DNA of 64,000 bases, taken from Pseudanabaena sp. PCC 7367. GTDB taxonomy: Bacteria > Cyanobacteriota > Cyanobacteriia > Pseudanabaenales > Pseudanabaenaceae. Every line of letters starts with the position of its first letter. Position 1 is the first letter of the stretch. Where the stretch lies: NCBI RefSeq assembly GCF_000317065.1, contig NC_019701.1, positions 930,001 through 994,000 on the forward strand. Reading direction: 5' to 3'. Below the pieces are notes generated by a model. It was not told the DNA's origin, made no database searches, and was given only the letters and a program-made list of their open reading frames with translations. A program made the translations under genes and the position numbers. This document shows positions 59,352 to 61,677 of the stretch, in pieces.

Positions 59352-59558
59352 ATGCTCGACAATTGGCTATTTAAGACTACGGCTAGGCTTTATGCTAGCT
59401 TATCACAGCGCTTTTGCGGTTTTATGGCATTTATGAGTAGGGTTACCCGCCAATCGATCGGCTAGGATCTGATTAAATTCGATCGGCTATTTTGTTTTTT
59501 GATCGGACAGTCGAATTTATTTAAAACACTGGTATTTTCAGCGGTGCTCATCCTAACC

Positions 59559-60479
59559 TCAACCAGCTTCCTGTTGCGACTTAACTAAGAAAGAAATATT
59601 TGTAGCGGTTAGATTTAATACATAGGCAGCCATACTTTCCAACTCCTCGGTTGGCTTGGCGGCGCGATCGCTTTCCGATGGAATACTATGGCGCAAGGCA
59701 CGGCAGATATCATAGAATTGCGCTTGCAAAAATTCCGGCACCAGTTGCTTATTCTGGCAATTATCCACTAATGTGCCAACCGTGTCTTCGGGGCCATATT
59801 GCCACCCTTTTTGATCGCAAATGGTTTTAAAAGCCAACTCAAAGGATTTGAGGCATTGCCCCAGGCATTCTTGATATTTACCCTGATTGAAATATTCATG
59901 GGCGCAGCGGAATTCTGCATTGGTTTGGCTAAATTTACAATCATCCAGCAGCGTTAACGCCGGTTTCACCACCTCCGCATGGATATATTCGGAATCGATC
60001 CGCATGATTTTGCCATCGTTGAATTTATAGCCCACGCTATGTTCTAGAAAGCGCTGGTTTAACTCATCGATCGCGTGGTCGGGGTGAATCTTGGCGCCAT
60101 ATAAAAAGGGATTGCGCCGCACCACCTGGTCGATCGCCCGGAAGCTAATTTCAATGATATCGAGGGTAATATCTAGATAATCAAAGGATCGCAACGACGG
60201 CTCCAGACTATTGAAACTAAGCAATGCTTCTAAAATGGGGATCGATTCCGGGTGGGGGAGTGCCACCAGGCTAAATACACCATACTCCCGGCAAAGATGA
60301 CGGTGGATTACATCGTAGAGCTTGACCGCTTCGCTATGCCGCCCCAATCCGATCGAATCGCCAATGATATGAATAATTTGAATGCGCAGATTAACCGGAA
60401 TATTTTCGTATTGAAATACTTCCGATCGGTCTTGCTGAGATTGTTTTTTCCGCTTGGAGTAAATATCCAGCACTCTCAT
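59559..60479 (-). CDS. AbiJ-NTD4 / STM4504-CBY_0614 family protein, candidate defence protein
   Basis: 306 residues. The N-terminus (MRVLDIYSKRKKQSQQDRSEV, then QYENIPVNLRIQIIHIIGD) is the conserved start of the STM4504/CBY_0614 family, whose first domain is AbiJ-NTD4, a domain seen in phage abortive-infection proteins. The rest is helical and ends in ALRHSIPSESDRAAKPTEELE, a block typical of the C-terminal part of these proteins. Members of this family are common in phage-defence islands but also occur alone, and their biochemical activity is not established. Here it stands alone: clpR and a DUF302 gene are its neighbours and no other defence gene is seen. A CRP-like site lies about 340 bp upstream. 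No signs of recent transfer. Confidence 0.75.
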   Translation of the reverse strand: MRVLDIYSKRKKQSQQDRSEVFQYENIPVNLRIQIIHIIGDSIGLGRHSEAVKLYDVIHRHLCREYGVFSLVALPHPESIPILEALLSFNSLEPSLRSFDYLDITLDIIEISFRAIDQVVRRNPFLYGAKIHPDHAIDELNQRFLEHSVGYKFNDGKIMRIDSEYIHAEVVKPALTLLDDCKFSQTNAEFRCAHEYFNQGKYQECLGQCLKSFELAFKTICDQKGWQYGPEDTVGTLVDNCQNKQLVPEFLQAQFYDICRALRHSIPSESDRAAKPTEELESMAAYVLNLTATNISFLVKSQQEAG

Positions 60480-61119
60480 ATTGGCGCACCCTAAAATTAA
60501 CTAGTATTAAATTGATTGATTGCTGATTGATTGCGGCAAGCCCTAAATCAATGAAGAATCTGATCGCTGGGCTTGAATTGGTTCCAGCGAGTTAGTTCAA
60601 GATTAAGTATGAACTAAACATTCGCAAGTCACTCGTATCTATTTCAATGGAATCTATGGCTCTTTGTCTATAAATCGATATCTAAGAACGATATCTATGC
60701 ATCGATTGGCCATTATCTTTAAGCTAACTGCTAAAGATATTAATATCTAGCGATCGTTTCACTATGGCCTTACTCAACATTTGCAATTTGATTCTATGGG
60801 ATCTAATCACAGCGCTTGTGTGATCTAGATCAAACCTGCTAATTTAGCTAGTTTTTAAGTAATGGCAGTAATGGCTAAAATCATTTAGTTAGCAAAACAA
60901 CCAAATAATTGGCTAATAAATCAACTCAGCATTTCTATGTATGTAATGATTGCAGTTATTGGTTAGGAATGTTGCTATGGGTGGCGATCAATCTACACCG
61001 GATTTGTGCTAAAAACAGGCATAATCTACACCGATTTAGTTGGTGGATTTTTTTGTGAATCCAGAAGCAAGTACATGTAGAATCTGGACTTAGGCGATCG
61101 ATCCGGTGAGGCAATCTTT
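60480..61119. other. Divergent spacer with a CRP-like site
   Basis: 640 bp between the AbiJ-like gene (minus) and the DUF302 gene (plus). No gene is supported. The CRP-type site is listed separately. GAGG stands 8 nt before the DUF302 start. Confidence 0.5.
60819..60834. promoter_or_regulatory. Near-consensus CRP/SyCRP1-type operator
   Basis: TGTGATCTAGATCAAA matches the palindromic CRP consensus TGTGA-N6-TCACA in nine of ten half-site bases, and even the spacer TCTAGA is the consensus one. SyCRP1 of cyanobacteria uses the same type of site. It lies about 290 bp before the DUF302 gene and 340 bp before the AbiJ-like gene, so which promoter it controls is not clear. Confidence 0.5.
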
Positions 61120-61677
61120 ATGTTCTTAATTAGTAAATCAAGCATTAGTAAATCAAGCAATATAAGCATCATAGGTAGGGCAAAAGGCCGATTTAACCTG
61201 TTACTTGGTCTAACTTATTTCCTCAGCTTTATTGTTATTTCCTCCCTAAACATACCCATGACCAAAGCAGAAGAGAGATTCGATGACGGCTTGGTACGAG
61301 TTGAGAGTATCCACAGCGTCGCGGAAACTGGCGATCGCCTAGAGGATTTACTCCGCAATCGCGGCATTACAGTGTTTACCAGGATTGATCATGGTGCTGG
61401 AGCGACCAGCGTGGAACTGGATCTCCGACCTACAGAAGTAATTATATTTGGAAACCCCAAAGTTGGCACGCCTTTGATGCAGTGCAATCCCACAATTGGC
61501 ATTGATCTGCCGCTAAAAGCGCTAATTTGGCAGGATGCGGAAGGTAAAGTTTGGCTTGCTTACAATGCACCGGAATATTTAGCCGATCGCCACGAGCTAG
61601 GTTCAGAGTGCGATCCCAACATCCAGAAACTTGGCGCAGTATTATTAAACCTGGCGGAAACAGCTACCGGAAGCTAA
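61120..61677 (+). CDS. Exported DUF302 protein
   Basis: 185 residues. The N-terminal 51 residues are a long signal sequence: Ser/Lys-rich start made by a 15-bp direct repeat (61131-61160, SKSSI/SKSSN), then a hydrophobic core (NLLLGLTYFLSFIVISSLN) and a probable cleavage after TKA. The mature part has the DUF302 signature: GITVFTRIDHGAGATSVELD (about 85-104), PTEVIIFGNPKVGTPLMQ and IGIDLPLKALIWQD. The domain is structurally known but its function is not; it occurs in periplasmic proteins that may bind small ligands. GAGG precedes the ATG by 8 nt. Confidence 0.88.
   Translation: MFLISKSSISKSSNISIIGRAKGRFNLLLGLTYFLSFIVISSLNIPMTKAEERFDDGLVRVESIHSVAETGDRLEDLLRNRGITVFTRIDHGAGATSVELDLRPTEVIIFGNPKVGTPLMQCNPTIGIDLPLKALIWQDAEGKVWLAYNAPEYLADRHELGSECDPNIQKLGAVLLNLAETATGS
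61131..61160 (+). repeat. 15-bp direct repeat in the DUF302 signal region
   Basis: Two copies of TAGTAAATCAAGCAT (61131-61145, 61146-61160, last base changed) encode Ser-Lys-Ser-Ser-Ile repeats before the signal peptide. Confidence 0.8.

Follow-up and report, generated by a model that had tools for sequence, protein, structure and literature searches.

A probably disarmed AbiJ-NTD4/HEPN gene in Pseudanabaena sp. PCC 7367

Gene and domain organization

The window analyzed here is a 64,000-nucleotide stretch of the Pseudanabaena sp. PCC 7367 genome (NC_019701.1, positions 930,001 to 994,000), and all coordinates are positions within it. It contains a stand-alone gene with two recognizable halves:

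59559..60479, minus strand: AbiJ-NTD4 plus HEPN (DUF7014) protein of the STM4504/CBY_0614 family, 306 aa, ATG start
59958..60467, minus strand: AbiJ_NTD4 domain (NTD), residues 5-174, the proposed sensor half, with 29 of 29 near-invariant residues kept
59562..59942, minus strand: C-terminal domain with a predicted HEPN fold, residues 180-306 (DUF7014 at 180-302)

Members of the STM4504/CBY_0614 family are expected to carry AbiJ_NTD4 followed by DUF7014, and this order is observed in the window protein. Pfam AbiJ_NTD4 (PF18863) matches residues 5-174 with 78 bits (cut-off 34), Pfam DUF7014 (PF22809) matches residues 180-302 with 76.2 bits (cut-off 27), and NCBIfam NF046078 (STM4504_CBY0614) matches residues 23-300 with 266.1 bits (cut-off 150). 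The frame is open over all 306 codons, free of stops and frameshifts. By sequence, the gene is therefore a member of the STM4504/CBY_0614 family. The original prediction had made this assignment, together with that of AbiJ-NTD4, and had proposed a profile search for AbiJ_NTD4; the domain was found, and all three profiles, each above its cut-off, bear the assignment out. CBY_0614 is named as the prototype of AbiJ-NTD4 in the part of PMC3710099 drawn on here, and the window gene resembles the family in having the same two domains at full length in a stand-alone gene. The profile of a PADLOC candidate system, PDC-S32, gave a partial and weak match to the window protein (residues 16-223, 22.9 bits, E 1.5e-05, with no cut-off given), a score too low for a claim of membership. 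A search of solved structures by sequence with the window protein returned nothing relevant.

The C-terminal half is predicted to adopt a HEPN helical fold. An AlphaFold2 model of the window protein, built from an alignment of 76 sequences, has a mean pLDDT of 90.5 and a pTM of 0.68. When residues 180-306 were compared with known structures, the best 20 rows were all HEPN-type chains or proteins; the match to 1o3u has a Z of 14.8 and an rmsd of 2.7 over 118 residues. The comparison tool warns that unrelated helical bundles can reach Z near 13, a level exceeded by the first two rows, and Foldseek of the modelled C-terminal half gave a probability of 1.00 with a best E of only 0.22. Structure prediction had also been proposed at the outset, and its outcome, with Z up to that of 1o3u, agrees with a HEPN fold in this half.

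Genomic neighborhood and insertion site

On one side, the gene is flanked by clpP and clpR (PF00574), and on the other by DUF302, AnmK and DUF2997 genes. None of the eight window neighbors scanned is a defence gene, and the earlier description of the gene as sitting among housekeeping genes, in no obvious island, holds for these neighbors. A search for tRNAs near the gene found none, and promoter and terminator scans in the same region did not rise above shuffles.

The surroundings of clpR were compared with those in seven relatives (G002, G004, G048, G049, G050, G052 and G056); the host genus is represented by one genome, the window's own. AbiJ, DUF302 and AnmK proteins sought around clpR in the seven relatives had no match at any site, and in the 3 kb upstream of clpR at eight sites, the window included, no two sites matched each other at the protein level. 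There is no empty site to compare because no relative read has clpR adjoining a DUF302 gene. The seven clpR sites thus demonstrate no shared site, conserved or empty, and no clean insertion.

An imperfect 26-nt direct repeat, identical at 21 of 26 positions, flanks the gene:

59391..59416, plus strand: left copy of the repeat
60795..60820, plus strand: right copy of the repeat

As a control, the window was divided into 64 half-overlapping pieces of the same length, none of which reaches 21 of 26 (the best, 20, occurs in two), in a test that was chosen after the repeat had been noticed. The two best genome matches of the repeat core are these two flanking places. With up to two mismatches the core occurs 19 times in the genome, against once for the pattern read backwards, and its count in the window with two mismatches is no more than expected by chance. 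Since core-like words are over-represented in this genome, the repeat does not demonstrate an insertion, and we regard it as a weak hint of an insertion footprint. The codon-position GC of the gene is similar to that of neighboring genes, which suggests that the gene, if it did arrive from elsewhere, probably did not do so very recently. A perfect tandem duplication of 15 nt, with ATTAGTAAATCAAGC present twice (61129-61158), also lies where the DUF302 coding sequence starts.

Of the 140 nearest neighbors of named relatives, 136 were scanned, the four of at least 900 aa being left out. Among the families listed, Pfam identified Resolvase (3), Phage_integrase (3), N6_N4_Mtase (2) and reverse transcriptase (2), and PADLOC identified mad2 (5) and AriA (3). 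As no listed family recurs more than three times by Pfam or five times by PADLOC, no constant partner is seen.

Distribution

An abortive-infection system is expected to have a patchy and mobile distribution, and such a distribution is observed for this family. It is present in 7 of 38 genomes of the window's own order and in 12 of 388 genomes of the class (both counts including the window's own genome), two of the latter being incomplete copies (G546 and G595). In the phylum, the NCBIfam model matched 6 of 386 genomes, own included and incomplete matches counted, with five above the cut-off. Plasmids contribute 338 records; 298 are predicted to be conjugative, and 287 of them come from Escherichia. 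The phage collection contributes four records, including one whose own description is that of a Zymomonas plasmid, and 12 viral contigs carry relatives when searched with an alignment query; the same contigs searched with the window protein alone gave no relative. The pattern is that of a mobile gene that stands alone. Conservation in all cyanobacteria at this site, named beforehand as an observation that would speak against a defence gene, is not what the class and phylum counts show, nor is the gene found at any of the seven clpR sites. In three Nostoc-type genomes (L061, L065 and L051), the family gene occupies a common site, between a gene starting MDAEAALAWLDA and one that, by its N-terminal sequence, appears to encode an isoprenyl-transferase.

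Loss of the R-x5-H loop

HEPN RNases and AbiJ effectors are expected to carry an R-x4-6-H catalytic motif. Four features of the effector half are listed here:

59652..59687, minus strand: shortened, motif-less loop, residues 265-276, SIPSESDRAAKP; R-x5-H stands here in 91 of 93 homologues
59664-59671: HIP1 octamer GCGATCGC inside the shortened loop
59688..59702, minus strand: R260-A-L-R263-H264, at the end of the helix preceding the loop, a speculative candidate for a substitute active site
59826..59840, minus strand: E214-x3-K218, kept, with S215 replaced by Leu

The motif was counted in 93 non-redundant sequences, comprising the window protein, 9 sequences from whole-genome searches, 74 from a genome collection and 9 of viral origin. 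Among the other 92, 83 had been fetched by peptide patterns from the NTD or the linker, not by the loop, and the remaining 9 by whole-protein or family-model searches. The genome scan retained the best 80 of 150 relatives, ranked by likeness to the window protein. Before counting, 103 rows were reduced to 93 by leaving out L134 and L135 (the same contig stretches as L045 and L046), L126, L129, L136, L049 and L152 (fragments or frame-changed), and L145, L085 and L143 (identical to, or contained in, another row).

The two sequences without R-x5-H are the window protein and L109, from a metagenome-assembled genome (MAG). In the 91 others the motif takes the form RN..GHG (84 sequences), RN..AHG (4) or a form with D or S after the R (3), and its position corresponds to the loop joining the last two HEPN helices. 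A model of one motif-bearing homologue, L065 from Nostoc, has a mean pLDDT of 89.4, with the motif loop at low confidence. The motif is also kept in the six rows inspected among the first seven left out (L134, L135, L126, L129, L049 and, in the next frame, L136) and in six homologues that were read separately, namely the annotated records L185, L186 and L187 and the copies in G508, G546 and G595; the surroundings of the G508 copy match those of L090, a row already among the 93. The G546 copy (L163) has an in-frame stop and the G595 copy (L164) matches only from residue 131 on; both retain the motif.

In the window protein, 25 residues run from L262 to Y286, compared with 31 in 89 of the 92 others, so that the loop is six residues shorter, and R-x5-H is absent from all three frames of the gene. 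The protein thus fails the motif test that defines a HEPN RNase. The E-x3-[KR] motif, which is common across HEPN families according to the excerpted text of PMC3710099, is present as E214 and K218, with Leu at position 215 where the 92 others all have Ser. In the same source, the His of R-x4-6-H, and in some families the Arg, is required for RNase activity in KEN, RloC and PrrC, and R and H presumably have a catalytic role in the STM4504/CBY_0614 family as well. Because its predicted RNase loop is shorter and has no Arg and His in place, the window protein most likely cannot cut RNA. It differs from its family in the absence of both R-x5-H and S215 and in its divergent HEPN half.

The other motif-less homologue (L109:4992-5915, from a Desulfobacterales MAG) has, like the window copy, lost the motif with an in-frame loss in the loop. 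It belongs to the same family; it differs in falling into another, starred tree group, apart from the window copy, and in coming from a metagenome assembly. Among the AbiJ-NTD4/DUF7014 homologues, the sequences without the motif stand singly and form no clade. Motif-less HEPN proteins are known from other families: the excerpts of PMC3710099 describe a subset of MtlR proteins and HEPN domains fused to nucleotidyltransferases as non-catalytic, with a HEPN fold and no R-x4-6-H. Those proteins belong to other families and have other partners, whereas the HEPN of the window protein is joined to AbiJ-NTD4. Among open-licence papers, we found no report of a motif-less HEPN in AbiJ-NTD4 proteins and recognized no experimental study of the STM4504/CBY_0614 family.

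Unequal conservation of the two halves

To compare the halves, each sequence was left out in turn and its residues were counted at columns where at least 90% of the other rows agree. The window protein keeps 29 of 29 such residues in the NTD, 17 of 23 in the HEPN half outside the loop and 1 of 9 in the loop. Every NTD invariant is kept in 38 of the 92 others as well, so the complete NTD is a good but common result. The viral rows L150 and L151, which keep the motif, are equally low in the HEPN half outside the loop (17 of 23). In residues kept at conserved columns outside the loop, the window protein ranks 6th from the bottom of the 93 with the 90% cut and 14th with the 95% cut, and so does not stand out there.

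No other end branch in the tree is as long as that of the window copy (1.6, against a median of 0.26), and the copy has no firm place there, the bootstrap not having settled. When the halves are treated separately, the end branch ranks first of 93 for the HEPN half without the loop (1.13, median 0.178) and sixth for the NTD (1.0, median 0.332). The excess change thus falls mainly in the effector half, with the NTD also above the median. In a rough neutral simulation at 26% residue change, which leaves indels out of account and takes today's sequence as its starting point (the true ancestor may differ), the chance of no stop in the whole gene is about 0.002; for the halves alone it is 0.067 (HEPN) and 0.084 (NTD), values that leave room for neutrality of one half.

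Interpretation as a probably disarmed copy

In the portion of PMC3710099 used here, Abi-NTDs are proposed to interact with viral targets, the C-terminal HEPN domain is proposed as a suicide RNase, and AbiJ-NTD4/HEPN proteins are proposed as single-protein abortive-infection devices; their phage-defence role is a prediction in that source. Following these proposals, the N-terminal domain of an intact family member would sense a phage component and may restrain the C-terminal HEPN RNase, which on release would cut RNA and halt the cell. In the window copy, the prediction still gives a folded HEPN scaffold, the predicted catalytic residues are gone from the shortened loop, and RNA cutting would most likely be lost with them. 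A role that involves no cutting may have preserved the protein: it might bind RNA or a phage factor, or cap other HEPN proteins. The full NTD and the intact frame suggest that it is, or until recently was, retained for such a role. The reading that we favor, itself an even call, is that this AbiJ/HEPN protein has been disarmed catalytically and that selection acts on its sensor half now or did so until recently.

It is highly improbable that this is an ordinary active copy whose loop was misread in sequencing or wrongly assembled. L136 did at first seem motif-less and turned out to be frame-changed, with its motif intact in the next frame; however, the search of all three frames recovered no motif here, the loop has different in-frame codons, S215 is altered too, and the assembly consists of two contigs with 100% completeness. 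It is also quite improbable, if less so, that the protein is still an RNase in which R260 or R263, together with H264, substitutes for R-x5-H from the end of the preceding helix. The segment containing these residues, CRALRHS, adjoins the lost loop. Arg at 260 or 263 and His at 264 occur in none of the 92 others, so that these residues are new in the window copy, and E214 and K218 are kept. The excerpts of PMC3710099 describe HEPN families in which another His lies N-terminal to the motif; they also state that motif-less HEPN proteins can still be toxic and that alternative active sites may exist, both of which count against the disarmed reading. Nevertheless, the R260-x3-H264 spacing falls outside R-x4-6-H, the arrangement is common to no other sequence and so has no conservation in its support, and the otherwise invariant Ser is gone.

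Decay of a defence gene can be put forward tentatively. Its RNase would have been knocked out recently, in escape from self-toxicity or cost, leaving a gene without function whose NTD is intact for lack of time. The long end branch favors decay, and the alteration of 6 of the 23 near-invariant HEPN residues outside the loop is consistent with it, as are the visibly broken cyanobacterial copies in G546 and G595, although both keep the motif, and the chance that each half alone escaped stops. Retention, in contrast, is favored by the perfect NTD, kept despite the long branch, and by a frame open over its whole length, which in the rough simulation would improbably survive neutral drift of the entire gene. 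A more specific version of the disarmed-protein reading seems unlikely as it stands: here the protein would be a domesticated AbiJ, its RNase disarmed and its phage sensor under selection. It would then act by binding alone, perhaps as a decoy, by capping other HEPN toxins in a dominant-negative way, or as a regulator of the host next to clpR-clpP.

The gene had been put forward as a candidate for phage defence. That candidacy is less strong than was stated, since the effector domain lacks its predicted RNase motif, and the gene is probably disarmed rather than active in phage defence. The loss of the motif, a reason not given at the time, lends support to the accompanying remark that the role of the gene might be something other than defence. 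Domain profiles name this gene AbiJ/STM4504 at a high score despite its missing predicted catalytic site, and a defence catalogue that counts domains would score it as active. The window copy would represent a natural separation of sensor from effector; should its AbiJ-NTD4 half still bind a phage component, the copy could offer a way, free of toxicity, to find what triggers the family.

A partner of the same kind within the genome was considered and set aside, as the window protein is its only DUF7014 protein. The genome encodes one further AbiJ_NTD4 protein, of 297 aa, with no significant similarity to the window protein (L160:6995-7888, on G000:C2 at about 262.7 kb). The C-terminal half of this second protein is unnamed by Pfam, and its gene adjoins that of argininosuccinate lyase.
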